Source: Steroidobacteraceae bacterium (GTDB lineage Bacteria > Pseudomonadota > Gammaproteobacteria > Steroidobacterales > Steroidobacteraceae). Taken from it: a DNA stretch of 64,000 bases. The notes under the pieces are model-generated. The model worked only from the letters and a program-made list of their open reading frames with translations, did no database searches and had not been told where the DNA came from. The translations under genes were made by a program, and so were the position numbers. The DNA lies in assembly GCA_025451845.1 (NCBI GenBank), contig JANWJS010000053.1, forward strand, positions 62,001 through 126,000, written 5' to 3'. The number at the start of each line of letters is the position of its first letter. The stretch's first letter is position 1. This document shows positions 9,749 to 25,281 of the stretch, one piece after another.

Positions 9749-12097
9749 TTGATCGAAAATCGCCGCGGTGCCATCGGGCCTACAAGTTTTATCATCTGGC
9801 TGGCCGCCCTGGTGCTCTGCGGGCCCTGTCTCGCTTCGCCGGTCGTGCTGAACCGGAACGGCGCTTACGTCGCCGTCGAGGCTTATGCGCCGAATATCGT
9901 GCGCATCACGATCGCCACGGAATACGCCACGGCGGCAGCGCCTCCAGGTTATGGATTCATCGGCAGCGCCGACTCGCACGGATTCGAGCACACCGCGGAC
10001 GCCGGCGGAGATGACTTCCGCTCGAGCGGGCTGCAACTGCACGTCGATGCGCCGCCGCCGCCGGCTGCCCCGTCGTTTGGCGAGCGCTACTTCGCGCCGT
10101 CCTTGCCGCCGGTAGCGCTCGAAATCCGCAATGCGCATGGCGAGACGGTGCTGTCCATGACCGGCTGGCAGATGGCGCCCCACACTGTCAACGGCGAGCG
10201 CACTTTCCAGGTAGGCGCGAGCTTCGCAGCGGCCGCCGGTGAGCACTTCTACGGCCTCGGCCAGAACCAGGACGGAATCCTCGATTTGCGGGGACGCACG
10301 ATCGACTGCAAGCACTTCTACGACGATCCGCACGGTGAGACCGTCTGCGTGCCGTTCATGGTCTCGAGCCGTGGTTATGGAGTCGTTTGGGACAACCCGT
10401 CGGATACCCACGTCTATCCGGGTGTCAATGGGCACACGCTCTGGCAATCGGAAGTGGGCGAGCGCGTATCGTTCTTCGTCATCGTCGGTGAAGATGCCGA
10501 TGCGCTCTACACCGGATATGCAAAGCTCACGGGCCGCACGCCCATTCCCCCCAGGGCAGCCTTCGGGCTCATCCAGTCGAAGGCGCGCTATGCGAGCCAA
10601 CAGGAAATTCTCGACGTCGCGCATACCTACCGCAGCAAGGGCTATCCGCTCGATATCATGGTGCTCGACTGGTTCTACTGGACGCGCATGGGCCAGCTCG
10701 ACATCGATCCGGCGCAGTTCCCCGATCCCGATGCGATGAACCGCGATCTGCACGCCCTCGGCATCGAGTCGCTGATCTCGGTGTGGCCCCGCTTCGAACG
10801 CGACTCCCGCTACTTCAATGAGCTCGACGCCAAGGGCTACTTCCTCGAGGACAAGGACGGCAAGACCCAGGACGGGCTGCCGTTCCGCGCCGATCGCGCC
10901 GGAGCCCTGATCGACGCCACCAACCCACGTGCGCTCGACTGGTTCTTCGCCCATGTCCGCGACAACATTCTCTCCCATGGGTTCGACTATCTGTGGCTCG
11001 ACGAGACGGAGCCGGACCTCGTCCCGGATGGCTTCTTCTTCAAGATCGGCTCGGGGGACCGCTATCACAATGTCTTTCCGCAGTTGTACGTGGATGGCGT
11101 ATCGCAGCGGTTTCGCCGCTATCGTCCCGACCGGCGTGTCCTCATTCTCGCGCGGGCGGCGTATCTCGGCTCGCAAAGGACGGGAGCGATATTCTGGTCT
11201 TCGGACATCGATCCTTCCTGGGAGGCGCTCAGGCACCAGATTCCAACGGGCCTCAACATGACTGCATCGGGAATCGCCTACTGGGGCAACGACATCGGCG
11301 GCTGGCAGCCGTTGCCGCAGACTTCCTCCGCGATCCGTCCCCTCTTGATCGACCCCTCCGATGCCCGCGACGTCGTCGGCCATGACGATGACTATCCGGA
11401 GCTCTTCACACGCTGGTTCGAGTACGGGACTTTTCTGCCGACCCTGCGCATCCACGGCGAGCGTAAGCACACCGAGATCTGGGCCTATGGCAGCCAGGCC
11501 GAGGCGATTCTCGCCCGGTACGATCGCCTGCGGTACCAGCTCATTCCCTACATCTACTCGCTCGCCCGCCACACCTACGAGAGCGGTGCGCCCTTCATGC
11601 GGGCGCTGTGGATGGACTTCCCCCGCGATCCGAAGGTTGCGGTCATCGGCGACGAGTACATGTTCGGGCCGGATTTCCTGGTGGCGCCGGTGACGAGCCA
11701 GGGACAGACGCACAAACGGGTCTACCTGCCTGCGGGCACCGACTGGTACAACTACTGGACCAACGAGCGGGTGTCGGGAGGGCGGACGATCATCGTCGCT
11801 GCTCCGATCGACCGCATCCCGGTATTCGTGCGTGCCGGCTCCATCCTGCCGTTGGGGGCGGTAGTGCCGAGCACGGCGACGCCACAGGCCATCGAGCGGA
11901 TCAAGGTCTATCCCGGGCGCGATGCGGATTTCGATCTATATGACGATGATGGCGTCAGCTACGACTACCAGCGCGGCGGCGGCCGTCTGACTCATCTGCA
12001 CTGGAACGATGCCGCTCACCGCCTCATCTCAAGCGGCAGCGGCAAGATTCTCAAGCGTCCGGTCAAGTCGCTGCTGGAGGTGGTGGGTGTGCACTGA
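9749..12097 (+). CDS. Secreted glycoside hydrolase family 31 (alpha-glucosidase/alpha-xylosidase type)
   Basis: The 782-residue enzyme should hydrolyse alpha-glucosidic or alpha-xylosidic bonds, the latter for example in xyloglucan fragments. It has a signal peptide (hydrophobic segment FIIWLAALVLCGP, then LASP), the GH31 N-terminal beta domain, and a TIM barrel with the nucleophile at Asp418 in WLDETEPD and the acid/base at Asp486 in WSSDIDPSW. The downstream GNDIGGW motif is also conserved. The best start is a TTG at 9749, with AGGGGG five bases upstream; no ATG occurs before the signal peptide. GH3 and GH9 enzymes nearby suggest plant cell-wall glycan degradation. Confidence 0.9.
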   Translation: MIENRRGAIGPTSFIIWLAALVLCGPCLASPVVLNRNGAYVAVEAYAPNIVRITIATEYATAAAPPGYGFIGSADSHGFEHTADAGGDDFRSSGLQLHVDAPPPPAAPSFGERYFAPSLPPVALEIRNAHGETVLSMTGWQMAPHTVNGERTFQVGASFAAAAGEHFYGLGQNQDGILDLRGRTIDCKHFYDDPHGETVCVPFMVSSRGYGVVWDNPSDTHVYPGVNGHTLWQSEVGERVSFFVIVGEDADALYTGYAKLTGRTPIPPRAAFGLIQSKARYASQQEILDVAHTYRSKGYPLDIMVLDWFYWTRMGQLDIDPAQFPDPDAMNRDLHALGIESLISVWPRFERDSRYFNELDAKGYFLEDKDGKTQDGLPFRADRAGALIDATNPRALDWFFAHVRDNILSHGFDYLWLDETEPDLVPDGFFFKIGSGDRYHNVFPQLYVDGVSQRFRRYRPDRRVLILARAAYLGSQRTGAIFWSSDIDPSWEALRHQIPTGLNMTASGIAYWGNDIGGWQPLPQTSSAIRPLLIDPSDARDVVGHDDDYPELFTRWFEYGTFLPTLRIHGERKHTEIWAYGSQAEAILARYDRLRYQLIPYIYSLARHTYESGAPFMRALWMDFPRDPKVAVIGDEYMFGPDFLVAPVTSQGQTHKRVYLPAGTDWYNYWTNERVSGGRTIIVAAPIDRIPVFVRAGSILPLGAVVPSTATPQAIERIKVYPGRDADFDLYDDDGVSYDYQRGGGRLTHLHWNDAAHRLISSGSGKILKRPVKSLLEVVGVH

Positions 12098-12176
12098 CGC
12101 AGGAGGTTGGCGGTGCGCCATCGCCGAAGCGTATGCCCGCCGCCGTGCAATATTTCGGCGAGTAAGATAGCTGGCC

Positions 12177-12884
12177 ATGAAGCCATACGTAGTCTGTCAC
12201 ATGGTGGCCAGTATCGATGGGCGCATCCTGCATAGCCGATGGCGGCCCCGAACTCGCGAAGGGGGAGATCTTTTCGAGCGTCTGCACGTGAGACTCGGCG
12301 GCGAGGCCTGGCTCGTCGGCCGGGTGACCGGTCAGGAGTTCGCGAAGGCGCGAGCCTACGGAGCTCACACGGACGGGATTTATCCGCGTGAGCCATGGCT
12401 CGCTCGCCGCGATGCGGATGCATACGGAATCGTGCTGGATGCTCACGGGAAGATCGCCTGGGGTCGCTCGGATATCGGCGGCGACCCGATCGTCGTCATC
12501 CTGACCGACCAAGTCGCCGACTCGCATCTCGCCGGGCTGCGTGCGGACGGTGTCTCGTACTTCTTCGCCGGCAAACACGAGCTGGACCTGGCCTACGCGC
12601 TCGAGTTTCTCAACCGCGAGCTCGGCGTGAAGCGGCTGTTGGTAGAGGGGGGCGGCGGCAACAATGGCGCGTTCCTGCGCGCCGGTCTCATCGACGAGAT
12701 CAGCCTGGCCGTCTGTCCGGTAGTCGACGGGGCGAATGGAGCGCCGAGCGTTTTCGATTCGCCCGCGAGCGATGCCGAGCTGCGGGCACCGGTCGCGCAG
12801 ATGTCGCTCGAGAGCTGCGAGGTGCTGGAGGGCGGCGCCGTGTGGCTGCGCTATCGGCTGCGCAACGACGCCGCAACCACCTGA
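12177..12884 (+). CDS. RibD C-terminal/dihydrofolate reductase-fold reductase
   Basis: The 235-residue cytoplasmic protein has the fold of the RibD reductase domain: the substrate-binding start VVCHMVASIDGRI (about residues 5-17) and the NADPH-binding VEGGGGNNGAFL (about 157-168). Members reduce pyrimidine or pteridine-like substrates with NADPH. The deaminase half of bifunctional RibD is absent and no other riboflavin gene is near, so this is more likely a stand-alone oxidoreductase than the riboflavin enzyme. It starts at ATG 12177 and is followed after 10 bp by the cupin gene, probably in the same transcript. Confidence 0.82.
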   Translation: MKPYVVCHMVASIDGRILHSRWRPRTREGGDLFERLHVRLGGEAWLVGRVTGQEFAKARAYGAHTDGIYPREPWLARRDADAYGIVLDAHGKIAWGRSDIGGDPIVVILTDQVADSHLAGLRADGVSYFFAGKHELDLAYALEFLNRELGVKRLLVEGGGGNNGAFLRAGLIDEISLAVCPVVDGANGAPSVFDSPASDAELRAPVAQMSLESCEVLEGGAVWLRYRLRNDAATT

Positions 12885-12894
12885 GTCCCTTATC

Positions 12895-13251
12895 ATGACA
12901 GCACCGATCGTCCCTCTGGATGGCCCCATCTCCTGGGAAGCAAGTGGCCCGGCACCGGATCGCATCCTGCAGGGTCAACCGGCCCACCGCGTGTGGAACG
13001 CCTTCACCGATACGAGCAGCCAGTTCTTCTGCGGCCGCTGGTCCTCGGCTCCCGGGAAATGGCGTGTGCGTTACACCGAGAACGAGCTCTGCGTCATCAC
13101 GGCAGGTCGCGTGACCATCGAGAGCGTTGCGGGGGAGCGTCAGTCCTTTGCGGCGGGCGATGCTTTCGTGGTGCCGGCGGGATTCGAAGGGACCTGGACC
13201 GTGCACGAGGAATGCAGCAAGTTTTACGCGATTTTCGAGGCCCGGACGTAA
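12895..13251 (+). CDS. Small cupin protein (cupin_3/COG3450 type)
   Basis: This 118-residue single-domain cupin has the barrel motif G-KWRVRYTENELCVITAG at about residues 48-65 and the second motif GDAFVVPAGFEGTW at about 82-95. Proteins of this group bind a metal or a small ligand, and many have no proven activity. The first motif lacks the usual HxH histidine pair, so metal binding is doubtful. ATG 12895 is chosen because it gives the canonical cupin length; the open frame upstream lies inside the preceding reductase gene. It probably forms a two-gene unit with that reductase. Confidence 0.8.
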   Translation: MTAPIVPLDGPISWEASGPAPDRILQGQPAHRVWNAFTDTSSQFFCGRWSSAPGKWRVRYTENELCVITAGRVTIESVAGERQSFAAGDAFVVPAGFEGTWTVHEECSKFYAIFEART

Positions 13252-13347
13252 CCGAGCTCCCCGTGGAGCCAAACAACGCAAACCGGCGAGCGGCGGCCGA
13301 GTGGGCAGGCGCGCAACCGCTGAGCCGAGTTGCTTGGAGCCGAAGAC

Positions 13348-15891
13348 TCAGGTCTGCGGTCCCGGTCCCTGCGTTCCTTGGTTCACGATCGCCTCCGCCG
13401 CATTCGCCGCGAGAACCCATGTGGCTGCCGCATCGACGGTATATTCGTCCTCGAACCAGAGGAATCCGAAGTCGGTGATGCACTCCGGAAAGTCCGGCTT
13501 GATGACGACATAGCCCGGAATCATGCCGCCGGGTATGAAGGTGTTGTCGGCGCGATTGTTCCCGTACGCCTGCAGCTTTGAGGCCGTGCCGATCCCCGAG
13601 ATGTATGACTCACTGGAAGCCGGATGCATCCCGAGGAGGTAATCGGCGGCTCGGAGAGTGTATTCGGGGCCGATGAGACCTGGGAATGCCGCGTGGAGGA
13701 AGTACATCTGCACGCCGAATTCCGCGACCTCGGCCGAGCCGCCCCACGAGCCGACGGAGGGAGGCACGCCGAAGGGCGTGGCGGCCAGATAACGATGCAA
13801 CTGCGGCAGGGAGGCCTTGACCGCCGTTTCGAGGCGGGTACGGTAACCGCGGTCCAGATAGGGAAGAACGCGTACAGCCGCCCAGCCGCCGAAAGCGATC
13901 TGTTGCGGCGTTGCAGGAAACAGCTTCTCGACCCGTTGCTTGTAGGGCGCAGCGCCGTGGGTCGCTATCGTCAGCTCGACTGCGGCCGTCCACTCCGGCG
14001 AGCCCAGGCCGAACTCGCGGTAACCGCGTCCGCCCTCGCGGGAGCTCAAGTGGTGTTCCTGCGCAGGATGAGCCGCGACGTCATTCCAGAGCTTGATGGC
14101 CGTAGCGAGGCATTGCCGCGACAGCGGATCGTTCCAGCCCTTCAGGGTCCGGGAAGCGGCCGCCAACGATGCCGCGGCGCCGTATTCCATGCTCGGGGAC
14201 GTCATGGTCCAGGCCCAGCGAGCGTCCGGGTTGTTGGAGTAGGATCCGGTCTGCGATGCGCCATCGCCGATGAACGTGTACCACCTCAGGTAGGGTGATT
14301 GGATGCCGGTGAAAGGATGTCCCACGGCGCGAACTTGCGCGAGCGTTTGCAGGACGCCGTGCTCGACTTGCTCGACGATATCCGGAATGCCGTCCGGCCG
14401 GTGCATCTCGACCGAGCGGCCCTTCTCGTTGACCGAGAGCTCATCCCACTTCACATGGAAAGTTTCGTACGCCAACGCCAGGCTCAGGATGGTTCCGTAC
14501 TGGCCGAAGGAATCGTTGTCGAAGTCCCCCGCATCGAACCAGCCGCCGACATTCAAGCCCGGGATGTGCTGTCCGGGCTTGTAGGGCGACTCGGTGGTCG
14601 GGCCCATCCAATAGCCGTCGAAGTGAGTCATGTTCGGCGGTGCTTGCAGAGCGTCAGTCATATGCGCAATGCCATGCCATACGCGGTAGGCATCGCGCAC
14701 CGATACGTGATCCATTTGCACGGCAAGGTAGCCATCCAGCGTGGTTTGCCACGTGTCGCCATACACATCTGCGGCAATGGGGAACACGTCCGTGCGCCGG
14801 CCTGCGTATTCGACCACGTACAGGCCGGGCTCCTCGACGGACGAGAAATCGAACTTCGCATACTTATAGCGCAGCCACGCTTTCGGGGTCGACACCGGAC
14901 CCTCGAAGACCTTCCGGTACGTACCGTCGTCCGCAAGCCGCAGCAGCGCAGCGGTCGTGGGGGCCTTGAACCTTGGGTCGAGCTCGATCACGGCGACTTT
15001 CGGGAAGGCGGCGGCGTAGCCGGCCTGGCTGTGCGCGATCATGGGTGGCCGGGTCCAGTCGGGGATGTAGCTCGGGCGAATGTGCCAGACCACGGCGCCC
15101 TCTGTCTTGCCCGCCGGAATCTGCGTGCGCAACACGAACCAGCCGTTCTGCGCCTCGTTGCGCCCATCATAAAGGAGAAGCGGGCCGGTCTCCGAGGTCA
15201 CGCTGATCCGATCGAGCGGGTCTTCCACGGCCATCGTCATGCTTTTGCCCGTCGCGAACGGAAGAGGCTGGGTGTAGCCCTTGGCTTTGTGCCATTGCTC
15301 CACGTACCACAGACTCTTCGGCTCCCCCGGCTTGGGTGGCACGGCCGTCATCTGCTCCTCGGGGCTGCGAGGGAACACACCAAACACCTTGCCGTCGACT
15401 GAGTACGCCTTGTCGATGTACAGGGAAGGCAGGAGCTCCAGATTGAACCCCGCGCGGCCAACCAGCGCCGCCGGCAGCGGCTTGTCCAGGTTGACGCTCA
15501 CCCGTACTCCGCCGGGCTCCGCCGCGACCACGACGTGATAATGCAGGTTGTACGCCGGATAGGAGACTGAGGCAGCGAGGCGGTCATGCTCCCTGTCGGC
15601 TTGGCGCGTGATGAGGTGCGGAATCGCGTCCCATTGCTCCGGCGTCGGCGAGAGACGCACGCTGCCGTTGGTGGCAATGCGATGACCGTGCAGAATGATC
15701 TGCATGGCCGCATCCTTCTGGTCGAAGAAAATGGGGCTGTAGTTGTCGTCGTACAGCATCACACTGACGCCCGGCCCGTCGAGGTAGCCGCTGTCCGTGA
15801 CTTTCATGTCGAGAGCGCCGGGCGCGCCGAGGCACTGCAGGGGGGCAGCGAGCAGGGCCATTGCCAGGACGGTTCGCAATCGAGAGCGCAT
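13348..15891 (-). CDS. Secreted glycoside hydrolase family 9 with N-terminal Ig-like domain (endoglucanase type)
   Basis: The 847-residue enzyme resembles CelD-type GH9 cellulases: signal peptide (LRTVLAMALLAAPLQCLG), an N-terminal beta-sandwich region, an immunoglobulin-like CelD_N domain (about 290-380, PTTAALLRLADDGTYRKVFEG) and an alpha-toroid catalytic domain. The catalytic Asp pair is in GGWFDAGDFDND and the C-terminal acid Glu in WFEDEYTVDAAATWV. The N-terminal 280 residues beyond the usual domains are long for the family. ATG 15891 is favoured because GGAG lies 9 bases upstream; ATG 15924 adds 11 residues. It likely cleaves beta-1,4-glucan or mixed-linkage glucan and is convergent with the cupin gene. 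Confidence 0.88.
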   Translation of the reverse strand: MRSRLRTVLAMALLAAPLQCLGAPGALDMKVTDSGYLDGPGVSVMLYDDNYSPIFFDQKDAAMQIILHGHRIATNGSVRLSPTPEQWDAIPHLITRQADREHDRLAASVSYPAYNLHYHVVVAAEPGGVRVSVNLDKPLPAALVGRAGFNLELLPSLYIDKAYSVDGKVFGVFPRSPEEQMTAVPPKPGEPKSLWYVEQWHKAKGYTQPLPFATGKSMTMAVEDPLDRISVTSETGPLLLYDGRNEAQNGWFVLRTQIPAGKTEGAVVWHIRPSYIPDWTRPPMIAHSQAGYAAAFPKVAVIELDPRFKAPTTAALLRLADDGTYRKVFEGPVSTPKAWLRYKYAKFDFSSVEEPGLYVVEYAGRRTDVFPIAADVYGDTWQTTLDGYLAVQMDHVSVRDAYRVWHGIAHMTDALQAPPNMTHFDGYWMGPTTESPYKPGQHIPGLNVGGWFDAGDFDNDSFGQYGTILSLALAYETFHVKWDELSVNEKGRSVEMHRPDGIPDIVEQVEHGVLQTLAQVRAVGHPFTGIQSPYLRWYTFIGDGASQTGSYSNNPDARWAWTMTSPSMEYGAAASLAAASRTLKGWNDPLSRQCLATAIKLWNDVAAHPAQEHHLSSREGGRGYREFGLGSPEWTAAVELTIATHGAAPYKQRVEKLFPATPQQIAFGGWAAVRVLPYLDRGYRTRLETAVKASLPQLHRYLAATPFGVPPSVGSWGGSAEVAEFGVQMYFLHAAFPGLIGPEYTLRAADYLLGMHPASSESYISGIGTASKLQAYGNNRADNTFIPGGMIPGYVVIKPDFPECITDFGFLWFEDEYTVDAAATWVLAANAAEAIVNQGTQGPGPQT

Positions 15892-16070
15892 GCAGCGACT
15901 CCAGCCGTAGATGTTGCTGAGCATTGGGAACGGTACCGTAAAACTGGTACCGCACCATCGTAAGATGCGGCGGGCCTTTTGCGCAAGGATGGCAAAACCC
16001 CGGCGGGGCGGCCACCGAGGAGACGTTTCTGGCCATCTGCGCTATCCTCCCGCTCAAACAGTCCGGAGTC

Positions 16071-16847
16071 ATGAGCATGAGATCCCAGATCAAAGGCACC
16101 ACGATGCCCGTGCTCGAGATCGGCCTCGAGCCGAACGATCGTATCGTCGCCGAGCCTGGCGAATTCTCGTGGATGACCGACGGTGTGCAGATGCGCACGA
16201 CGGCCTATACGGCCGGTGCACGCGGCGTCTGGGGCGCGATCGGGCGCGCCTTCTCTGGCGGCGGTCTCTTCATGACCGAGTACTCGGCGCCCGCGGGCCG
16301 CGGAGTAGTGGCCTTCGCCGCAAAGGTCCCGGGTGCGATCATGCAGGTCGATGTGCCCGCCGGCCATTCGTATCTCATTCATCGGCATGGCTTCCTCTGC
16401 GGCAGCGAAGGTCTGCAGCTGACGACCGGGTTCCAGCGCTCCCTCGGCGCCGGGATCTTCGGCGGCGACGGGTTCCTGTTGCAGCGTCTGACCGGGCCTT
16501 GCACCGCGTGGGTGGAGCTGGGCGGAGAGGTGGTGACGTACGACCTCGCTCCCGGTGAGACGCTGCAGGTGCATCCTGGCCACATCGGCATGTTCCAGGA
16601 CAGCGTGAATTTCGACATCGCCTTCATGCGCGGCATTGCCAATGCGCTCTTCGGCGGCGATGGTCTCTTCGTGGCGCGCCTGACCGGACCCGGCAAGGTC
16701 TGGCTGCAGACCCTGACGGTGCCCAATCTCGCGCATGCGATCGCGCCTTACCTGGGGGGCGATCGCGGATCGCAGAATATCCAGAGCGGCGTCGCAGGCG
16801 GAGTCGCCGGCGCCGTATTGCGCGACCTCTTCGGCGGCAACCGCTGA
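16071..16847 (+). CDS. AIM24/TIGR00266 family protein
   Basis: The 258-residue product matches the AIM24 family of double-stranded beta-helix proteins, whose biochemical role is unknown in bacteria. Repeating segments are visible, such as IFGGDGFLLQRLTGPC and LFGGDGLFVARLTGPG, about 70 residues apart, which fits the internal pseudo-repeat of this fold. There is no signal peptide or membrane segment. ATG 16071 and ATG 16077 are both possible starts; the family match begins about residue 7. It stands alone between the GH9 gene and a pseudogene. Confidence 0.88.
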   Translation: MSMRSQIKGTTMPVLEIGLEPNDRIVAEPGEFSWMTDGVQMRTTAYTAGARGVWGAIGRAFSGGGLFMTEYSAPAGRGVVAFAAKVPGAIMQVDVPAGHSYLIHRHGFLCGSEGLQLTTGFQRSLGAGIFGGDGFLLQRLTGPCTAWVELGGEVVTYDLAPGETLQVHPGHIGMFQDSVNFDIAFMRGIANALFGGDGLFVARLTGPGKVWLQTLTVPNLAHAIAPYLGGDRGSQNIQSGVAGGVAGAVLRDLFGGNR

Positions 16848-16860
16848 GGCCCCGCGGCGC

Positions 16861-17076
16861 ACCGATACATTTATCGGCGACTGGTATCGGCTCACTCCTG
16901 ATCAGAGCGGCAGCTACGTCAATGGCACGTGGAGGCAAATCGCGCTTGCGCCTTACAACCCTCTTTACCACTCCACCGAGGTGCTACCCGACGGTCGGAT
17001 GGTCATCGAGGGGGGTGAGGATCTGTGCATCAACTACGGTAACGTCAATACGGATGGCCGTGCGGCCGAGGAATGA
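16861..17076 (+). pseudogene. Fragment of a kelch-repeat protein gene
   Basis: The translated segment contains WYRLTPDQSGSYVNGTW, then PLYHSTEVLPDGRMVIEGGE. This is the characteristic opening of bacterial kelch-repeat proteins, in which each blade pairs a LPDGRVIVEGGE motif with the next. Only about one blade is left: no start codon or signal peptide precedes it, and the match stops after EGGE, before a stop at 17076. I see it as a truncated remnant. The frame begins inside the end of the AIM24 gene only by chance. From 17077 to 17265 I recognise nothing further. Confidence 0.5.
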
Positions 17077-17265
17077 CGGAGCCGCGCGGCCGTCCTCATC
17101 GGAAGGATTGACACGGCCGATTTGCGGCGATCCTCGCCGGCGAGGGTGTGCTGCGGGCAGATCGGCTGCGATTTCGCCACGATGAGCAACGCGCTTTCCG
17201 GGACCCGGTTCATGGATCCCAGCCAGCTGATACCCCGACGCTGAGCCGGCCGATGGCATCCGGGC

Positions 17266-17295
17266 TTGCCTGGCCGGCGCCTGCCATGCTATCAA
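17266..17295 (+). promoter_or_regulatory. Candidate promoter of the DAHP synthase leader
   Basis: TTGCCT (17266-17271) and TATCAA (17290-17295) are separated by 18 bp. A start of transcription about 7 bases later would fall next to the leader ATG at 17303. The -35 matches consensus at four of six positions. It is assigned because of its place before the leader peptide and attenuator. Confidence 0.4.
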
Positions 17296-17302
17296 TAGGG
17301 CC

Positions 17303-17392
17303 ATGTCCGAGTCTCGTTGCACCCGCCGTTCGTACTTTCGATACTACTGGCCGCATTCGCGGGCGGTTGGCGGGCTGTCATCGAATCCATGA
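17303..17392 (+). CDS. Aromatic amino acid leader peptide (attenuation control of DAHP synthase)
   Basis: This short frame encodes 29 residues with a cluster SYFRYYWPH at positions 10-18: three Tyr, one Phe and one Trp within six codons. Such clusters are the sensor of classical ribosome-mediated attenuators, as in trpL and pheL. It ends 26 bp before an intrinsic terminator (17419-17446), and the next gene makes DAHP, the first committed metabolite of aromatic amino acid synthesis. CCCGCC (17322-17327) in the leader can pair with GGCGGG (17369-17374). GGCGGTT (17362-17368) can instead pair with AACCGCC (17419-17425), the left arm of the terminator. AGGG lies only 2 bases before the ATG, so initiation may be leaderless. 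Confidence 0.75.
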   Translation: MSESRCTRRSYFRYYWPHSRAVGGLSSNP

Positions 17393-17418
17393 TGTAGTCG
17401 AGACGAGATACCCGAGAA

Positions 17419-17446
17419 AACCGCCAGTCCTCTGGCGGTTTTTTTT
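17419..17446 (+). terminator. Intrinsic terminator acting as attenuator before DAHP synthase
   Basis: AACCGCCAG (17419-17427), loop TCCT and CTGGCGGTT (17432-17440) form a perfect 9-bp stem. With the two T that end the stem, a run of eight T closes at 17446. It lies 31 bp before the DAHP synthase start and downstream of an aromatic leader peptide, so it would end transcription unless the ribosome stalls. The left arm can pair with an upstream antiterminator segment at 17362-17368. Confidence 0.85.
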
Positions 17447-17477
17447 GCCCCGGGGACTCGCAAACCCGGAGCCGAGC

Positions 17478-18587
17478 ATGCATTCCCAGACCGACGACCT
17501 CCGCATCCGCGGAATGACCGAGCTCGCGACGCCCGAGCAGGTGATCCGCGAGCTTCCTTGCACCGACCGGGCGGCAGCCACCGTGAGCGCTACCCGCCGC
17601 GCAGTGCAGCAGATTGTGCATGGCCGCGACGATCGGCTCGCCGTGGTGATCGGGCCATGCTCGATACACGACGCGCACGCCGCGCGCGAATATGCGCAGC
17701 GCCTCGCACATGAGCGCGCCCGGCTCAGCGGCGAGCTCGAGCTGGTGATGCGCGTGTACTTCGAGAAACCCAGGACGACGGTAGGTTGGAAAGGCCTCAT
17801 CAACGATCCGAATCTCGATGGCAGCTTCCGGATCAACCACGGTCTGCGGCTCGCCCGCGGACTGCTGGTCGACATCGACGAGCTCGGCGTGCCGGCCGGA
17901 TGCGAGTTCCTGGACATCATCACGCCGCAGTACATCGCGGACCTGGTCGCTTGGGGCGCAGTCGGCGCCCGCACGACGGAAAGCCAGGTGCACCGCGAGC
18001 TCGCCTCCGGTCTCTCCTGTCCGATCGGTTTCAAGAATGGAACGGACGGTAACGTGCGGGTGGCCGTGGATGCCGTAAGGGCCGCCGCGCAGCCGCATCA
18101 CTTCCTTGCCGTGACCAAACAGGGCCGCAGCGCCATTGCGGCGACCTCGGGCAACGCGGACTGCCATGTCATCCTGCGGGGCGGCAGAACACCCAACTAT
18201 GATGCGGCGAACGTCGAGGCAGCCTGCCGCGAGATGGCAGCTGCAGGTGTCGACACCCGGCTGATGGTCGATGCGAGCCACGGCAACAGCGGGAAGCGTC
18301 CTGAGCAGCAGCCCCTTGTCGTCGAGGATATCGCTGCGCAAATCGAAGGGGGCGACCGGCGCATCGGCGGTGTCATGATCGAGAGCAATCTCGTGGCGGG
18401 ACGCCAGGACCTGGTGCCCGGTCATCCTCTCCTCTACGGCCAGAGCGTCACGGACGGGTGCATCGATTGGCCGACATCGGTGAAGGTGCTCGAGCGGCTC
18501 GCGGCAGCCGTCGCCCGGCGCCGCGGCAGCATCCGTCCCGCCCGAAACGGCCGGCCGGCGCTGCGATCGTCGGCGACGATCTCGTGA
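17478..18587 (+). CDS. aroG: 3-deoxy-7-phosphoheptulonate (DAHP) synthase, class I AroFGH type
   Basis: The enzyme condenses phosphoenolpyruvate and erythrose 4-phosphate to DAHP, the entry step of the shikimate pathway. The 369-residue product has the class I motifs VVIGPCSIHD (about 55-64), YFEKPRTTVGWKGLINDP (about 94-111) and DASHGNSGK (about 264-272). It starts at ATG 17478 (MHSQTDDLRIRG) with GGAG upstream; the frame is open upstream through the attenuator but that region is not translated as this gene. Which aromatic amino acid inhibits it cannot be told, so the AroG label is a family name. Expression is probably controlled by the leader peptide and terminator just upstream. Confidence 0.92.
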   Translation: MHSQTDDLRIRGMTELATPEQVIRELPCTDRAAATVSATRRAVQQIVHGRDDRLAVVIGPCSIHDAHAAREYAQRLAHERARLSGELELVMRVYFEKPRTTVGWKGLINDPNLDGSFRINHGLRLARGLLVDIDELGVPAGCEFLDIITPQYIADLVAWGAVGARTTESQVHRELASGLSCPIGFKNGTDGNVRVAVDAVRAAAQPHHFLAVTKQGRSAIAATSGNADCHVILRGGRTPNYDAANVEAACREMAAAGVDTRLMVDASHGNSGKRPEQQPLVVEDIAAQIEGGDRRIGGVMIESNLVAGRQDLVPGHPLLYGQSVTDGCIDWPTSVKVLERLAAAVARRRGSIRPARNGRPALRSSATIS

Positions 18588-18630
18588 CGAGCCGAGGTCC
18601 GGCGGCCTGCCGCTGCCGTATGCTGTGCTG

Positions 18631-20832
18631 ATGAAATCATCGATCCCCGCGGTGGTCCTGCTCCTTGCAGCGGGCACCTGGGCGTTGCCGTCCGCAGCGC
18701 GATCGGCGGCTACCGGCAATGTCTCCCGCTGGGAGCGCGAGGCGCAGAACGTCACGATCTACCGCGACAACTGGGGCATTGCCCACGTTTACGGCAAGAC
18801 CGACGCCGACGCGGTGTTTGGCATGGAGTATGCGCAGGCGCAGGACGACTTCAACCGGGTCGAGTCGAATTACATCGACGCGCTCGGTTGGCGCTCGCAA
18901 GCGCAAGGCGAGTCCGCGATCTACCGCGATCTGCGCAGTCAGCTGTTCGTCGATGGCCAAGCGGTCCGGGCGGAGTACGAGCGAAGCCCGCAATGGCTCA
19001 AAAAGCTCATGAACGCCTTCGCCGATGGCTTGAACTACTATCTCTACAGACATCCTGAGGTGAAGCCGCGGGTCATCGGTCATTTCGAGCCCTGGATGGC
19101 GCTCGCCTTCAGTGAAGGCAGCATTGGCGGTGACATCGAGACGGGGGTGAGCGTCCCGCAGCTCGCCGCCTTCTACGGCGGGCCGCCGGTCCCCGCCGAT
19201 GCCACCGCGAGCATCGCACCGCTGCCGCCGGAGCCTCAAGGCTCAAACGGCATCGCCATCTCCCCAGCCATCACCCTGGACCATCGCGCGCTGCTCTGGA
19301 TCAATCCGCACACTTCTTTCTACTTCCGCTCCGAGCTGCAAATGGTGAGCGGGGAGGGACTCGACGCATACGGCGCCGTCACCTGGGGTCAGTTCTTCAT
19401 CTATCAGGGATTCAACGCGACCGCCGGATGGATGCACACCTCGAGCGGGGTGGAGAACATCTCCTGGTTCCTGGAGACGGTTACCAGAAAGAACGGCCGT
19501 TACTACTACCGATACGGAGACCGGGAGCTACCCGTCAAGACGCGGCGAATCGTGGTGCGTTTCAGGACGCCGACCGGGATGGCGGAAAAAGCGTTTACGG
19601 CTTACTACACGCAGCATGGCCCGGTCATTGCGCGGATCGGCGACAAGTGGGAAACCGTGAACCTGATGCAGAGCCCCCTACGCGCGCTCGTCCAGGATTT
19701 CAGCCGGACCAAGGCCGCGGATTATGCGCAGTTTCGCAGGGCAATGCAGCTGCATACCGACTCATCGAACAACACCATCTTCGCTGACGCCGAGGGCAAC
19801 ATCGCCTACTGGCACTCGGACTGGATCCCGCGGCGCAGCGACGCGTTCGACTGGAGCAAGCCGGTCGACGGCAGCAATCCGGCCACTACCTTCCACGGCC
19901 TGCTCACCCTCGACCAGACCCCGCATCTGCTGAATCCCCCGAATGGCTGGCTCTACAACTCCAACAACTGGCCCTGGTCCGCGGCGGGTCCATACAGCCC
20001 GAAGCGGCAGGACTTTCCGAAGTACGTGGAGCGGGGTAGTGAGGAGACCGCGCGCGGCCATCACGTCCTGAGACTGCTCAGCGGTGGGAAGAACTGGACC
20101 ATGGCATCGTTGACCGCGGCGGCATTTGACAGCTACCTCCCTGCGTTCGCGACCATGATCCCGGTCCTCGTGAAGGCCTACGATGCCACGCCCGGGTCCG
20201 ATCCGCTCAAGGCGCGCCTCGCCGCGCAGATCATCGTGCTCCGCGCCTGGAATTACCGCTGGGGGATCAATTCGGTCGCGACCTCCCTCGCCGTGTTCTG
20301 GGGCCGGGACATCTTCGGGCACGTACTGGCTGCAACGCAGGCATTGGGCATCTCGCCCGAGGACTACGTGGTGCAGCGTGCGACGCGCCAGCAGCTGCTG
20401 TCGTCCCTGGCTGTGGCATCCGGCCAGCTGGAGGCGAATTTCGGCAGCTGGGACACTCCTTGGGGCCGCATCAATCGCTTCCAACGGATCAATGATGACA
20501 TCGAACCGGGTTTCGACGACTCGAAGCCGAGCATTCCGGTGCCCTTTACCTCCTCGCTCTGGGGCTCCCTGGCCGCTTTCGGCGCACATTCGTACCCCAA
20601 CACCAGGAAGTGGTACGGTGACGTGGGCAATAGCTTCGTCGCGGTCGTGGAACTCGGTCCCCAGGTGCGCGCCTGGGCCATCACCGCCGGTGGCGAGAGC
20701 GGCAACCCGGCCTCGCCGCATTTCGATGACGAGGCGGCTCAGTACGCCATGGGTGAGCTGCGGCCGGTTTACTACTACAAATCGCAGCTCGCGGGCCACA
20801 TCGAACGGCAATACCATCCGGGCCAGGATTAG
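18631..20832 (+). CDS. Penicillin acylase (S45) family amidohydrolase
   Basis: The 733-residue secreted N-terminal-nucleophile hydrolase carries a signal peptide (VVLLLAAGTWALPSAAR). Precursor layout is typical: alpha-chain motif RDNWGIAHVYG (about 46-56), spacer, then the autocleavage site before Ser205 in PQGSNGIAIS, which becomes the catalytic N terminus of the beta chain. WLYNSNNWPW and the Arg/Asn-rich C-terminal region also fit. The family cleaves amide bonds of acylated small molecules, including beta-lactams, acyl-homoserine lactones and lipopeptides; the natural substrate here is unknown. ATG 18631 is preferred over GTG 18625. It ends 18 bp before the convergent GGDEF gene. Confidence 0.9.
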   Translation: MKSSIPAVVLLLAAGTWALPSAARSAATGNVSRWEREAQNVTIYRDNWGIAHVYGKTDADAVFGMEYAQAQDDFNRVESNYIDALGWRSQAQGESAIYRDLRSQLFVDGQAVRAEYERSPQWLKKLMNAFADGLNYYLYRHPEVKPRVIGHFEPWMALAFSEGSIGGDIETGVSVPQLAAFYGGPPVPADATASIAPLPPEPQGSNGIAISPAITLDHRALLWINPHTSFYFRSELQMVSGEGLDAYGAVTWGQFFIYQGFNATAGWMHTSSGVENISWFLETVTRKNGRYYYRYGDRELPVKTRRIVVRFRTPTGMAEKAFTAYYTQHGPVIARIGDKWETVNLMQSPLRALVQDFSRTKAADYAQFRRAMQLHTDSSNNTIFADAEGNIAYWHSDWIPRRSDAFDWSKPVDGSNPATTFHGLLTLDQTPHLLNPPNGWLYNSNNWPWSAAGPYSPKRQDFPKYVERGSEETARGHHVLRLLSGGKNWTMASLTAAAFDSYLPAFATMIPVLVKAYDATPGSDPLKARLAAQIIVLRAWNYRWGINSVATSLAVFWGRDIFGHVLAATQALGISPEDYVVQRATRQQLLSSLAVASGQLEANFGSWDTPWGRINRFQRINDDIEPGFDDSKPSIPVPFTSSLWGSLAAFGAHSYPNTRKWYGDVGNSFVAVVELGPQVRAWAITAGGESGNPASPHFDDEAAQYAMGELRPVYYYKSQLAGHIERQYHPGQD

Positions 20833-20850
20833 CTCATGGCGGGGCGAGCC

Positions 20851-22269
20851 TTACGCAACGCTCACGCGATTGCGGCCTGCGCGCTTGCTCTCGTAGAGCG
20901 CGGCGTCGGCGGCCCTGATCAGGATGCGCGGGGAGACGTGCTCGTCGCCTCGATGGGGCGCAAATCCCGATATGCCAAAGCTTCCCGTGATGCGCAGCGG
21001 CCCAGCCGTCGTGTCGCATGGGGTGAGTCCGATGCGCTCGCACAGGCGCCGCGCGACGAGCAGCGCTTTGGGGATGGTCACTTCCGGCAGGACGACCGCA
21101 AACTCTTCGCCGCCGATGCGTGCGACCCAGTCCTCTCCCAAACGCAGCCCATGAGTGAGCCTGGCGGCGAACTCGCGCAGCACCTGATCGCCGACCTCGT
21201 GACCGTGAGAGTCATTCACCGCCTTGAAGTGATCGATGTCGCACATCAAGAGTGAGAGCGGCCGGCGCAGCCGCATCGCGCGCTCAACTTCGCGCGGAAA
21301 CTCGTGCTCGAAGAAGCGGCGGCTGCCGCAGCGAGTGAGCTCATCGATCGTCGATAGGATGCGGTTGTCGGTGAGCGCGAGCTGCAATGCAGCCGAGAGA
21401 CTCGCGATGCGGCGGGCGGTCGTCAGATGTCCCCAGAACTCCTCGCCGCCGGCTTCGGGCGGCATGCAATCATTGGCGCCTCGGCGCAGGGCCTCGCGCG
21501 TGCCGACCGTGCCGTCGACATCGACATAAACGACGTGGGTCGCCGAGCCCGTATGGAGCTGGCGCATTGCCTGGACGAGATTGAGCTGGTCCGTGAAGAG
21601 CAGGGCATACGTGCGCGCCTCGAGGCTTGCGAGTGCTTCCGTCGCCGAGGTGAGAGGCTCGACTTCAATATTGGCGTTCAGAAGCCACTTCACGAAGCGC
21701 TCGCGTATCTCTTCGTGCCCGAGGACGAGCAAGGCGATCGGAACGGGTGGATGGCGTCGCAGGACGTTCGACAGTGCTGACTGGTCTTCATGCTGCAGAG
21801 CGCGATCGAGAATCCCCTGACGCTCTATGAGATAGGTGGCCGTGCTGCTCGCCTCGGCATCCGTCTCGGTCTTGCGACGATCGGAGCGGCTTTCCTGCAC
21901 CAGCTCCGTGCGCTCATCGAGCGCTGAGCGGACGACGCCCGCTAGCCTGCCCAGATTCGCCTTGGCCACGAATCCCGCGGCACCCCGCTCCCTGGCCACT
22001 TCCCCGGCCGCCGGATCGGAATTGCCAGTGACGAAAATGAATGGCGTGCGGGGACACTCCGTCCGCGCGATGGCGAGCGCCGCGAGGCCGTCGAAGCCGG
22101 GAACGCTCGAATCGGAGAGGATGATGTCGGGAGAGTGCTGCAGTCCCTGGCGGAACTCGGCCTCGCTCTCCGCGCGTTCGAACGAGCAGGCGACACCTGC
22201 CTGCGACAGGGTTCGGCAGGATGACTCCGCTGCCGCACCATCGTCCTCGAGCACCAGCATCCGAATCAT
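20851..22269 (-). CDS. PleD-like diguanylate cyclase with two receiver domains
   Basis: The 472-residue protein has a receiver domain (1-120: acidic VLEDDG, phospho-Asp in ILSDSSVPG, Thr in FVTGN, Lys in FVAKA), a second receiver-like domain (about 170-290) without a clear acceptor Asp, and a C-terminal GGDEF domain (about 310-470). The active-site motif is intact as RIGGEEFAV. The inhibitory RxxD site expected five residues before it reads LGED, so product inhibition may be lost. This architecture matches PleD, which makes cyclic di-GMP when phosphorylated. No histidine kinase is adjacent. It starts at ATG 22269 and is convergent with the acylase. Confidence 0.9.
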   Translation of the reverse strand: MIRMLVLEDDGAAAESSCRTLSQAGVACSFERAESEAEFRQGLQHSPDIILSDSSVPGFDGLAALAIARTECPRTPFIFVTGNSDPAAGEVARERGAAGFVAKANLGRLAGVVRSALDERTELVQESRSDRRKTETDAEASSTATYLIERQGILDRALQHEDQSALSNVLRRHPPVPIALLVLGHEEIRERFVKWLLNANIEVEPLTSATEALASLEARTYALLFTDQLNLVQAMRQLHTGSATHVVYVDVDGTVGTREALRRGANDCMPPEAGGEEFWGHLTTARRIASLSAALQLALTDNRILSTIDELTRCGSRRFFEHEFPREVERAMRLRRPLSLLMCDIDHFKAVNDSHGHEVGDQVLREFAARLTHGLRLGEDWVARIGGEEFAVVLPEVTIPKALLVARRLCERIGLTPCDTTAGPLRITGSFGISGFAPHRGDEHVSPRILIRAADAALYESKRAGRNRVSVA

Positions 22270-22717
22270 TTCATTCCCATCCCTTCACGAAGACGAGTAA
22301 CGTTTACCCGGTCTTCGCGTGCACGAGCGTCCAGACAACGATAAGTAAAGCAGGCCTTTTGCGTGCTGGGGATGACCTCACGGCCTCAGAATCCAAGGAT
22401 AGCAACTCAATGGCATGCCTCCCGGTCGCAGGGGCCCAGGCCCAATGCCGTGCCCCAGCCCCGCGCCTGCATCAACTGTGCCTGACCCTCATGTCTGGAA
22501 CAGCGCAGGTGACTCGCGCTGACTGGAGATCATCATCGCAGGTTCCCGCGGTGCCTGGGCGGTAGCGGCGAAAGGCCGTGGCACACGTGATCCAGCGAAA
22601 AGGCGGTGCCGGTCTGGAAGCCGGTAGCGACGGTTGCATGGGCGGGCACCTGCTAACATCCTACCGATACCGCCTCGGACGCAATTATAATTTACTTGCA
22701 TAATAAGGCGTAACTAT
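22270..22717. other. 448-bp intergenic region before dusA
   Basis: No convincing gene is visible. The right end (about 22680-22717) is much richer in A/T than the surroundings and continues into the first 45 bp of dusA. It contains ATTATAATTTACTTGCATAAT, where CATAAT could serve as a -10. The same kind of A/T-rich entry precedes the dusA scrap at 62541, which suggests that the left flank of this dusA came from an inserted element. Confidence 0.5.
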
Positions 22718-23764
22718 TTGGAATTAAATAGAAAATTATCCGTTGCTCCGATGATGGGGCGGACGGACCGGCACTGTCGCTATTTTCTTCGCGGCTTCTC
22801 GGCGCGGATGCTCCTCTACACGGAGATGATCCCCGCCGCGGATCTGACGCAGGGCGACTCCACGCGGCTCCTCGAGTTCGATCCCGAGGAACACCCGGTC
22901 GCGCTGCAGCTCGGCGGCGGTGACCCGCAGGAGCTGGCGGCGGCCGCGCGCAAAGGCGAGCAGGCGGGTTACGACGAGATCAACCTGAACTGCGGTTGCC
23001 CGAGCGACCGGGCCACGGGCGGTGTGTTTGGCGCGTATCTCATGCAGCGGCCGGAAACCGTTGTGGCTTGCGTTGCCGCCATCCGCGCGGCCGTTCGTGT
23101 GCCGGTGACAGTCAAAATGCGGATCGGAGTCATCGCGGGCCGGGGCAGGGCCGCCATCGAGGCCAGCCATCGCTTCGACGAGGCGGAGCAAGCCGCCCTC
23201 AGCCAATTCGTGGGCGCCGTCCGCGATGCCGGCTGCGACGCTGCGATCGTTCACGCGCGCAAGGCGGTGCTCGGCGGACTGTCGGCGCAGGACAACAGGG
23301 AGATACCTCCGCTGCAGTACGATGTCGTGAGGCAGGTAAAAGAGGCCTTTCCCGATTTGCACGTGATCGTCAACGGCGGGCTGCGCGAGCCGGACGCGAT
23401 CCTCAGCCTGCTCGATGGCCTCGACGGCATCATGCTGGGGCGCGAGGCGTATCACCGCCCCGTAGTTCTTGCGCGGCTCGATGCCCTCCTGTTCGGTGCC
23501 GAGCCGAACCCGGGCCCCTCTCACTCGAGCCGGGAAGCGCCAGACGCGGTTGCGCGCGCGCAAGCCATCGTGCGTATGCAGTGCTACATCGAGCGGCAGC
23601 TGGCGCGCGGTGAAAGGCTGTCCGCCATCGTCCGTCACATGCAGGGCTTGTACGCGGGCGAGCCCGGCATGCATGAGTTCCGGCGCACATTGGCCGAAGG
23701 CGCTCGGCGCCCGGGTGCGGGCGCGGAAGTGTTGGCGCAAGCCGCCGCGAGTGCTCGAGTCTGA
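22718..23764 (+). CDS. dusA: tRNA-dihydrouridine synthase A
   Basis: DusA reduces uridines 20 and 20a in the D-loop of tRNA with FMN and NADPH. The 348-residue product is full length, with SVAPMM at 8-13, CGCPSD with the catalytic Cys94, VKMRIG at about 134, and HARKAVLGGLS at about 187-197. The start is a TTG at 22718. Its first 15 codons are A/T-rich (MELNRKLSVAPMM) unlike the rest, and the scrap at 62541 opens nearly identically. The usual MMDWTDRH reads MMGRTDRH here. A second, more canonical dusA begins at 63705. Both features point to replacement of the 5' end by an integrating element. Confidence 0.88.
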   Translation: MELNRKLSVAPMMGRTDRHCRYFLRGFSARMLLYTEMIPAADLTQGDSTRLLEFDPEEHPVALQLGGGDPQELAAAARKGEQAGYDEINLNCGCPSDRATGGVFGAYLMQRPETVVACVAAIRAAVRVPVTVKMRIGVIAGRGRAAIEASHRFDEAEQAALSQFVGAVRDAGCDAAIVHARKAVLGGLSAQDNREIPPLQYDVVRQVKEAFPDLHVIVNGGLREPDAILSLLDGLDGIMLGREAYHRPVVLARLDALLFGAEPNPGPSHSSREAPDAVARAQAIVRMQCYIERQLARGERLSAIVRHMQGLYAGEPGMHEFRRTLAEGARRPGAGAEVLAQAAASARV

Positions 23765-23856
23765 TGAGATCATGGGGAGCACTGTCGCGGAGATCGTGAG
23801 CCCTGGTGGGCCAAGAAGACAACCAGGCCATGGCAGGCGCGTGATTCGCCGGAGCC

Positions 23857-25281
23857 TCATTTCCAGGCGCTGAGGGTCAGCGGACTCTCCACAGCGTCCT
23901 CGAGTTGCCCCAGCGTTTGCTGCGCGCGCACCAGCGCGTCGAGCCGGTCCTGTGCACCGGCCTCATAGGCCAAGCGGGCGTTGGCCTGGTCGAGCGGCTG
24001 CAGCTCCCCAGCGGCGACCTGCGCATGGACGGAGCTGAGCTGCCGGTCGAGATTGCGCAGCAGGGCGTTGGCCGTCATGAGCTGTGCGCGGGCGGAGTCG
24101 TACCCGGCGAGGGAACTATCGATCTGGGTCACTGCGCACGTCTGGACCGTGAGGAAGTGAGCAGCCGCAAGTCCCCGTTGCGCCTTTGCCTCGGCGATCG
24201 GGCCCTGATTGTGGTTGCGCACGGGCAGGGGAAGCGAGAGCCCGAGCTCCCATTCCCTGTCGTCGGCGAGCTGCTCGTTCCAGGCAAAGCCGGGTCCGAG
24301 ACTGATGTCCGGCCATTGGCGCGCGATTTGCAGCTGCAGCGCCGACTGGCTGGCCGCGTAACGCTCCAGGGCGGCCCGGACATCGGCGCGGTCGAGCAGG
24401 GCGCGTTGCCTCACCTGCGGGCGGGTGAGCTCCAGGGGAACGGTCTGCAGCTCGGCGAACGAAAATCGTGCGCCGTCGAGGGCACGCAGCGGCACGCCGA
24501 GGGCGCCAGCGAGCGCGACGCGCGCTCGCTGCAACTGACCTGTTGCGGCCTGGCGCGCGAGGGTCGTACGGTCCACGGCAATACCAGCCTGCGTCGCTTC
24601 GTAGCTCGAGACGTTGCCCGCTTTGAGCTGACCTTCAAGCAACGCGAGGACTCTCTGGCGTGTCGACTCTTCCCGCTCGAGCTGCAACTCGGATTGGCGT
24701 GCCGCGTAGAGCGCGAGGAGGGCGGCTCGCAATCTACTGCGGACGCGCCACACGGTGGCGACCAGATCCCAGCGTGCTGCTGCGGCGAGATGCCGTGCCT
24801 CGGCGAGACGATAGCCGCGCTTTCCCGCGGTCTCGAACGGCCAGTCGAAGGAGAGGGGCACGATCCAAGGGTGGACCGTACCGGGAACACCGGTGTCGTA
24901 GCCGGGTGTGAAGGAGATCGTCGGGTTGGGGCGCTCTCCGGCCGAGATTTCGGCAGCCTGTGCGGCGAGCAGCTTGCCGCGCGCCTCGGCGAGGGCCGGC
25001 TGGTAATACAGCGCCGCCAGTGTCAGCGTCCTCAGGCTCCACGCGGCTCCACCTGCCGGTGCAGGGACGTGATTGGCCGCCAGAAAGGTGCGCAGGCCGG
25101 GTGTCTCGAGGGAGCGCGTTTCGAAGCTCGTGATGCTCGCTGCTGCGGACAGGGGCTTCGCCTGAAAGTGGGCGCAGGCGGCGAGCTGGCCGGCACAAGC
25201 CAGGATCAGGAAGCCGCGGGTGTGCCAGCTGCGTGACACAGCCAACTTCGACCGCACGGCCGTCCTCGCTCGGATGACCAT
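23857..25281 (-). CDS. TolC/CusC-type outer membrane efflux lipoprotein
   Basis: The 474-residue product has a lipobox (GQLAACAHF, Cys36) after a hydrophobic signal, so it is probably lipid-anchored in the outer membrane. The rest is the twofold OEP repeat: long helical segments such as ALYYQPALAEARGKLLAAQA (about 90-110) and a second copy around 300-430. It would form the exit duct of an RND pump. It is divergent from the adaptor and pump genes with only 39 bp between starts, so one control region serves all three. The basic N terminus is long and an internal start is possible. Confidence 0.88.
   Translation of the reverse strand: MVIRARTAVRSKLAVSRSWHTRGFLILACAGQLAACAHFQAKPLSAAASITSFETRSLETPGLRTFLAANHVPAPAGGAAWSLRTLTLAALYYQPALAEARGKLLAAQAAEISAGERPNPTISFTPGYDTGVPGTVHPWIVPLSFDWPFETAGKRGYRLAEARHLAAAARWDLVATVWRVRSRLRAALLALYAARQSELQLEREESTRQRVLALLEGQLKAGNVSSYEATQAGIAVDRTTLARQAATGQLQRARVALAGALGVPLRALDGARFSFAELQTVPLELTRPQVRQRALLDRADVRAALERYAASQSALQLQIARQWPDISLGPGFAWNEQLADDREWELGLSLPLPVRNHNQGPIAEAKAQRGLAAAHFLTVQTCAVTQIDSSLAGYDSARAQLMTANALLRNLDRQLSSVHAQVAAGELQPLDQANARLAYEAGAQDRLDALVRAQQTLGQLEDAVESPLTLSAWK

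Follow-up and report, generated by a model that had tools for sequence, protein, structure and literature searches.

The aroG locus and its upstream region

The window, meaning the whole analysed stretch of 64,000 nucleotides from a Steroidobacteraceae bacterium, contains a DAHP synthase gene, aroG, preceded by a short leader ORF rich in aromatic codons and by an intrinsic terminator (Table 1). The gene product matches TIGR00034 with 522 bits against a cut-off of 173, in agreement with the original prediction that a DAHP synthase lies downstream of the leader. The name aroG is used loosely because the score with the AroG-specific model NF006723 (532) falls under the cut-off of 568. At DAHP synthase, carbon becomes committed to the whole set of aromatic amino acids, and the textbook control of this enzyme in enterobacteria combines TyrR/TrpR repression with feedback inhibition. 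Among the 11 matches in the window genome (G000) to NF008085, which we take to be the TyrR model, none scores over the cut-off and all start at model position 197 or later; aroG is therefore not classed with the TyrR-controlled DAHP synthases of the E. coli type, which presuppose TyrR in the genome. Control at the first step of the pathway, as originally proposed, fits a DAHP synthase gene, but aroG does not encode the sole enzyme of that step: a class II DAHP synthase (PF01474) is also present in this genome (G000:C8:40020-41327; L216, L229), as it is in the other eight genus members with aroG. The upstream region of the class II gene in the window genome contains no aromatic leader.

Table 1. 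Positions of the leader and aroG features within the window.
Feature	Position	Strand	Basis or remark
Putative -35 promoter element, TTGCCT	17266..17271	+	Read from the sequence; CTTGCC in the genus alignment, L001-L007
Putative extended -10 element, TG C TATCAA, 7 nt before the leader start codon	17287..17295	+	Genus alignment
Leader peptide ORF, 29 aa, MSESRCTRRSYFRYYWPHSRAVGGLSSNP, stop included	17303..17392	+	Counterpart in 8/8 genus relatives
Possible protector arm, CCCGCC	17322..17327	+	Partner GGCGGG 17369-17374; weakly conserved
Aromatic codon run TAC TTT CGA TAC TAC TGG (Y F R Y Y W), putative sensing stretch	17333..17350	+	
Candidate antiterminator, GGCGGTTGGCGGG, two copies of the terminator right-arm core	17362..17374	+	Can pair with the terminator left arm
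Intrinsic terminator: left arm to 17427, loop TCCT 17428-17431, right arm from 17432, T-run 17439-17446	17414..17446	+	
aroG, type I DAHP synthase, 369 aa	17478..18587	+	TIGR00034

Reading of the sequence confirmed the leader ORF of 29 residues, which opens with ATG at 17303, ends with a TGA stop at 17390-17392 and encodes a peptide containing SYFRYYWP. The candidate antiterminator is composed of GGCGGTT (17362-17368) and GGCGGG (17369-17374), and its target in the left arm of the terminator is AACCGCC (17419-17425); these elements and CCCGCC all lie where they had been placed. The terminator had been described as a perfect 9-bp hairpin. It is present and its 9-bp left arm begins 26 nt past the leader stop, but the hairpin is longer than described, with AAAACCGCCAG/CTGGCGGTTTT forming 11 perfect pairs (17417-17427 with 17432-17442) and RNA folding predicting a stem of 14 bp. 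The T-run is separated from aroG by 31 nt. Folding of the 144-nt leader RNA, proposed earlier as a check, yields -61.3 kcal/mol, compared with -44.1 (sd 3.5) for shuffled sequences (z -4.9). A simple pattern scanner applied to 17000-17600 reported neither a terminator nor a promoter; it probably missed the terminator because its rules cannot handle a stem extending into the T-run. Further upstream, a mechanically called ORF in the same direction as the leader occupies 16735-17076. The arrangement of leader and terminator before the DAHP synthase gene is confirmed as real.

Among 5000 dinucleotide shuffles of 17077-17420, two produced an ORF with five aromatic codons in eight. The combined feature, defined as at least five aromatic codons in eight followed by an intrinsic terminator, was counted 55 times in aroG upstream regions and a single time elsewhere across 1,522,718 strand-bases, a background made up of the window and the DNA around aroG genes rather than of a whole genome. 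The same strand-bases hold 131 terminators and 94 aromatic-rich ORFs in all, and the single occurrence elsewhere (L096) is itself an aroG leader. A chance origin of the leader arrangement was rejected on the shuffles together with these background counts.

Conservation of the leader

A DNA search of 40 relatives returned eight long, strong matches besides the window (L002-L009). All eight genus relatives with aroG carry an aromatic-rich leader ORF ending 85-93 nt before the gene, together with a GGCGG-type terminator, and leader and terminator are thus found in 9/9 genus members having aroG (the window and eight others). Relatives that keep the DAHP synthase gene and lose both the codons and the terminator would have spoken against the original prediction; 8/8 genus relatives keep both. 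The leader peptides include RAYYRIYWP, RAYYWFYWP, ASYRFYWP and GYYRFYWP, while those of more distant members, NYRFTYFYRP (L008) and SYRFAYYF (L009), are without the YWP motif, the latter also without Trp. Across six window-genus leaders, the aromatic block shows replacement in four codons and synonymous change in one. In the genus alignment, the GGCGG, CCGCC, GGCGG and T-run columns are invariant, the GGCGG at 17362 among them. Both the antiterminator, predicted to pair through GGCGGTT with the left arm AACCGCC, and its spacing are conserved. RNAalifold found two-sided changes in 0/37 pairs of this alignment, and covariation was set aside as a line of support because there is too little variation. 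A TAGTCGAGAC block just after the leader stop (17394-17405 region) is invariant in seven genus members, the window included; it can pair partially with the 5' end of the leader and has no clear role in the attenuation model.

A promoter-like pair precedes the leader start in the genus alignment, with CTTGCC in L001-L007, absent from L008-L009, and TGnTA in most rows. In the nine genus leaders, 6-8 nt separate the end of the best -10 hexamer from the start codon, a spacing that would place the transcription start at the AUG or a few bases from it; the leader mRNA is therefore probably leaderless or almost so. A comparable position, 6-9 nt before the start codon, is found in 33/64 leaders, mostly gamma- and alphaproteobacterial, and the best hexamer in the Burkholderia group ends about 36-39 nt upstream.

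Beyond the genus, the upstream regions of AroG homologues from the order and from named genomes were examined. After three duplicate loci had been left out, an automatic rule identified 65 loci with leader and terminator; L088, nearly identical to L085, was subsequently dropped, and L021 (its leader broken by two unread bases), L092, L096 and L103 (the weakest) were added as positive by eye. According to these labels, 116 distinct homologous proteins divide into 68 with a leader, 47 without and one that is not assessable (L097), and aromatic codons and terminator are accordingly retained in 68/116 homologues of this wider set as well. The named-genome loci are the best 80 of at least 589 by similarity, and 54 of these best 80 are positive (same labels, L088 and L103 included). 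Carriers belong to the gamma-, beta- and alphaproteobacteria and include Xanthomonas, Stenotrophomonas, Dyella, Rhodanobacter, Burkholderia, Paraburkholderia, Caballeronia, Cupriavidus, Massilia, Janthinobacterium, Bradyrhizobium, Mesorhizobium, Devosia, Methylosinus and Leisingera. Homologues labelled as being without a leader include those of three enterobacterial, two Chromatiaceae, three Methylophilaceae, three Polynucleobacter and two Zoogloeaceae representatives. On the AroG tree the leader label requires nine changes, compared with a mean of 36.7 when labels are shuffled. A phylum draw of 199 genomes contained 114 with an AroG homologue; in a sample consisting of the best-scoring copy from 89 homologue-bearing genomes besides the window, taken mostly from the top of the list down, the automatic rule detected a leader in 18/29 and 4/60, and 67/89 were without one.

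The order of residues in the peptide differs across the homologues, and the order and number of Y, F and W vary between clades while the codon cluster stays. In eight Burkholderia-group leaders, the aromatic block varies synonymously only in four codons and by replacement in one. Several individual loci depart from the common layout. An aromatic leader and terminator in Undibacterium (L096, from L096:2364) lie about 625 nt upstream of aroG, either as a long leader or as a displaced one. An Anaerolineae bin (L103) has the leader MSRYFSFFSWYGYF upstream of its DAHP synthase gene, with a hairpin and a weak T-run, and may represent an independent case or a binning error. In Entomohabitans (L108), a short ORF, MACFFWFSGLF, lies 142-76 nt before the DAHP synthase gene with no GGCGG-type terminator, and the locus is labelled as being without a leader. 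A similar gene occurs in 73 plasmid records. Four of these were examined: two Paracoccus plasmids (L226, L227) have a DAHP synthase gene with an F/Y/W leader (SFYWFRY, SFYWFRC) and a terminator, and the copies from Caballeronia and Burkholderia are without the aromatic leader and terminator.

Predicted attenuation and its alternatives

The position of GGCGG relative to the aromatic codons is central to the proposed mechanism. This motif is present in 61/64 leaders, where its start lies 11-23 nt downstream of the first nucleotide of the final aromatic codon, the distance being exactly 14 nt in 32 leaders. A ribosome with its A site on a codon covers about 14 nt ahead, so that GGCGG begins about where a stalled ribosome would end; a stalled ribosome would leave the motif free and an advancing one would cover it. 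The antiterminator is a near copy of the right arm of the terminator, and the same left arm is contested by both. Duplexes of each antiterminator with its own left arm average -16.0 kcal/mol, compared with -15.2 kcal/mol for cross-locus combinations (0/2000 permutations; the loci are related and not independent).

Folding was carried out with the ribosome footprint masked and the right arm of the terminator not yet made, and differences were counted if greater than 0.05. Across 64 loci, the mean probability that the left arm pairs upstream is 0.72 with the ribosome on the aromatic codons, 0.35 two to five codons later (a value lowered in part by the mask, which hides GGCGG itself), 0.53 with the ribosome at the stop codon and 0.57 without a ribosome. 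The stalled state exceeds the later position in 61 loci and falls below it in none, exceeds the stop-codon state in 40 (lower in 2) and exceeds the free RNA in 32 (lower in 6); by the last two comparisons, the reset step is not explained at every locus. With three footprint sizes, the drop in pairing is located around the end of the aromatic run. In the window, pairing to GGCGG has a probability of 0.00 in free RNA, 0.57-0.79 with the ribosome on Tyr/Phe codons, 0.28 on the Trp codon and 0.06 at the stop. At equilibrium, the full-length terminator of the window wins in every ribosome state, and control must therefore be kinetic, as in known attenuators.

The protector pairing of CCCGCC (17322) with GGCGGG (17369) fared less well than the other elements of the original prediction, since the CCCGCC arm varies even within the genus. 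A protector effect is apparent in the window, where the left arm is paired upstream with a probability of only 0.04 in free RNA. The antiterminator is still favoured in the free RNA of L002, L004-L007 and L009 and with the ribosome at the stop codon in L002-L007. This reset hairpin would act in the window and is not conserved, in sequence or in effect, in most relatives; as a conserved part of the leader it is unsupported outside the window.

In the proposed mechanism, RNA polymerase would start at the leader AUG or within a few bases of it. A shortage of charged Tyr-, Phe- or, in the window, Trp-tRNA would cause the ribosome to stall in 17333-17350 with its leading edge halted just before the GGCGG at 17362. 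The free GGCGG could then pair with the left arm (17419-17425) once this had been made, and transcription would continue into aroG. When aromatic tRNAs are charged, the ribosome would instead advance and cover GGCGG, allowing the terminator to form and transcription to stop before aroG. The locus has a short translatable leader ORF with codons for end products of the pathway, an intrinsic terminator between leader and gene and, as modelled, an antiterminator that would exclude the terminator and be exposed by a stalled ribosome. The leader is therefore highly likely to be a ribosome-mediated transcription attenuator of aroG, a reading based on its parts, conservation, spacing, pairing potential and near-exclusive association with aroG. 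The attenuator interpretation advanced originally thus appears largely right in the light of the conservation and pairing analyses. The arrangement very probably turns DAHP synthase on when aromatic amino acids run short.

Tyr and Phe codons occur in 64/64 measured leaders each. The sensing of general aromatic supply that had been suggested fits the codons of the window, but Trp codons, counted anywhere in the peptide, are present in only 48/64 leaders, and Tyr and Phe form the core. A leader of this kind may respond to one, two or three amino acids. Phe is encoded by TTT 142 times and by TTC 57 times in the 64 leaders, a bias that may keep the run unstructured or slow.

Three other explanations were weighed against attenuation. 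The terminated leader RNA or its peptide might act in trans as a small regulator, with or besides attenuation, as do rnTrpL and peTrpL. In Sinorhizobium meliloti, the trpL attenuator transcript starts at the leader AUG, and both RNA and peptide act in trans (PMC7298713, PMC10117765); the predicted terminated RNA of the window, about 144 nt and probably leaderless, resembles rnTrpL as described there, although S. meliloti trpL is a Trp leader of trpE with documented trans functions. The invariant TAGTCGAGAC block would also suit a role in trans, but on visual inspection different clades share no sequence beyond the attenuator parts, and regulation in trans is considered unlikely. Alternatively, the leader peptide within the exit tunnel could sense a free aromatic amino acid and thereby stall the ribosome, in the manner of TnaC. 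Such nascent-peptide arrest would agree with the strong conservation of peptides within clades, exemplified by KFYFYFFW(H/Y)L(K/R)PLADREG in eight Burkholderia-group leaders and by FYWP...AVGG in most window-genus leaders. However, the aromatic residues are rearranged between clades with the codon cluster retained, the conserved C-terminal residues are those encoded by the GGCGG antiterminator, and the run at residues 5-11 in Burkholderia would be early for sensing in the tunnel; arrest by the peptide is thus very unlikely.

It could also be argued that the terminator merely ends transcription arriving from upstream, with the leader ORF as a passenger and the aroG promoter located after the terminator. 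The same-direction ORF at 16735-17076 could supply such transcription, yet in the genus aroG keeps its leader, antiterminator and terminator despite differing flanks, a promoter-like pair is aligned before the leader, and the interval from T-run to gene is short; this explanation is extremely improbable. Attenuation by a translating ribosome is accordingly retained as the preferred reading of the locus.

Known systems and relocation within the genus

The enterobacterial trpL and pheL attenuators (Trp_leader; Phe_leader, RF01859) comprise a leader peptide and mutually exclusive antiterminator and terminator structures; compared with the aroG leader, they sense a single amino acid and control other genes. 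The window scores 18.3 bits with Phe_leader, for which the gathering score is 55, and Rfam release 15 yielded no family at gathering score for the window and 16 related loci. Membership in an Rfam family was rejected, as the weak matches (E up to 10) were all far under threshold.

Attenuation of DAHP synthase genes is itself already known. The aroR leader of the Corynebacterium glutamicum aroF operon is described as a ribosome-mediated attenuator with a Phe-Tyr-Phe leader, and aroF transcription rises under Phe limitation, the reported response being to Phe and not to Tyr (PMC11802643, citing Neshat et al. 2014); a predicted leader is also given in PMC4046766. It resembles the present leaders in placing an F/Y leader and a ribosome-mediated attenuator before a DAHP synthase gene, but as described it differs in belonging to another phylum and in having FYF only, with no Trp named. 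By the same description, the present family is distinguished by longer F/Y/W runs and by a GGCGG antiterminator that copies the right arm of the terminator. In Acholeplasma, the uORFC-13-1 motif before aroF is a proposed attenuator with 24 representatives, all from Acholeplasma and environmental sequences (PMC8632094). It likewise places an upstream ORF containing one or more Phe codons immediately ahead of the intrinsic terminator of a DAHP synthase gene and differs, by its description, in having a run of U that codes for Phe. For E. coli aroF, attenuation was put forward as a hypothesis in 1980 (cited in PMC8632094), and candidate RNA motifs listed for Shewanella include an "Attenuator sensing tyr-tRNA" at aroF, citing the 1980 E. 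coli aroF work, and a "Possible transcription termination" at aroH (PMC2659441). These motifs also concern proteobacterial DAHP synthase genes, but the candidate list, as far as its description goes, gives no leader peptide for aroF or aroH. In the literature covered, mostly without subscription papers and in part by excerpts, no proteobacterial aroG leader peptide of this kind is described, and the Shewanella list is the nearest. The aroG leaders are accordingly predicted to constitute a widespread proteobacterial attenuator family reading Phe and Tyr and usually also Trp.

Within the window genus, the surroundings of the leader and aroG differ from genome to genome. The gene is found in 9/25 genus genomes, many of them incomplete, a patchy presence compatible with loss as well as with transfer; two further genus genomes gave no match in the AroG homologue search of the order. 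Window positions 11001-24000 were compared with stretches of 8.5-9 kb from each of the eight relatives (L217-L224). In each comparison, the detected DNA similarity is a single block that ends at 18511-18525 and starts at window position 17255-17261 in four relatives, at 17335-17339 in two and at 17417 and 17487 in the two most distant. None of the flanking ORF products of the eight relatives is shared with the window. Among the nine genomes, pairs sharing any flanking ORF product within about 4 kb number 2/36 for aroG and 33/36 for the class II gene (on one side, three of the class II stretches and several of those around aroG did not reach 4 kb); the class II neighbourhood is common to most genus members examined. 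No transposase families were found in 10 flanking ORFs of five relatives, of which 5/10 had no Pfam match.

AroG and class II identities correlate (Spearman 0.68 for 36 non-independent pairs from nine genomes), which gives long-standing presence combined with relocation no less probability than repeated recent transfer; for this reason, horizontal transfer in recent times is not favoured as the sole cause of relocation. Relocation as a general trait of the leader-aroG unit is unsupported, since flanks are mostly common within other clades: flank-sharing pairs amount to 36/36 in the Burkholderia group, 10/10 in Bradyrhizobium, 3/3 in Mesorhizobium, 6/6 in Devosia, 3/3 in Dyella/Rhodanobacter, 1/1 in Leisingera, 23/36 in Oxalobacteraceae and 4/6 in Xanthomonas/Stenotrophomonas. 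For the window genus, it is tentatively suggested that promoter, tRNA-charging sensor and aroG may form a self-regulating, portable unit able to move from site to site, by which a starvation-inducible type I enzyme is added to a resident class II enzyme without a leader of this type. Such a unit would work wherever it is placed because the sensor needs only the ribosome and RNA polymerase of the host.

If the attenuator reading is true, many members of the alpha-, beta- and gammaproteobacteria would monitor the charging of aromatic tRNAs directly where the pathway begins. Metabolic engineering would then have a naturally occurring sensor of several amino acids at its disposal, and the leaders would provide a clear way to test how signals from two or three tRNAs are combined by a single leader. 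That the whole unit has changed place in one genus would further illustrate how a metabolic gene could become portable through a sensor acting in cis.
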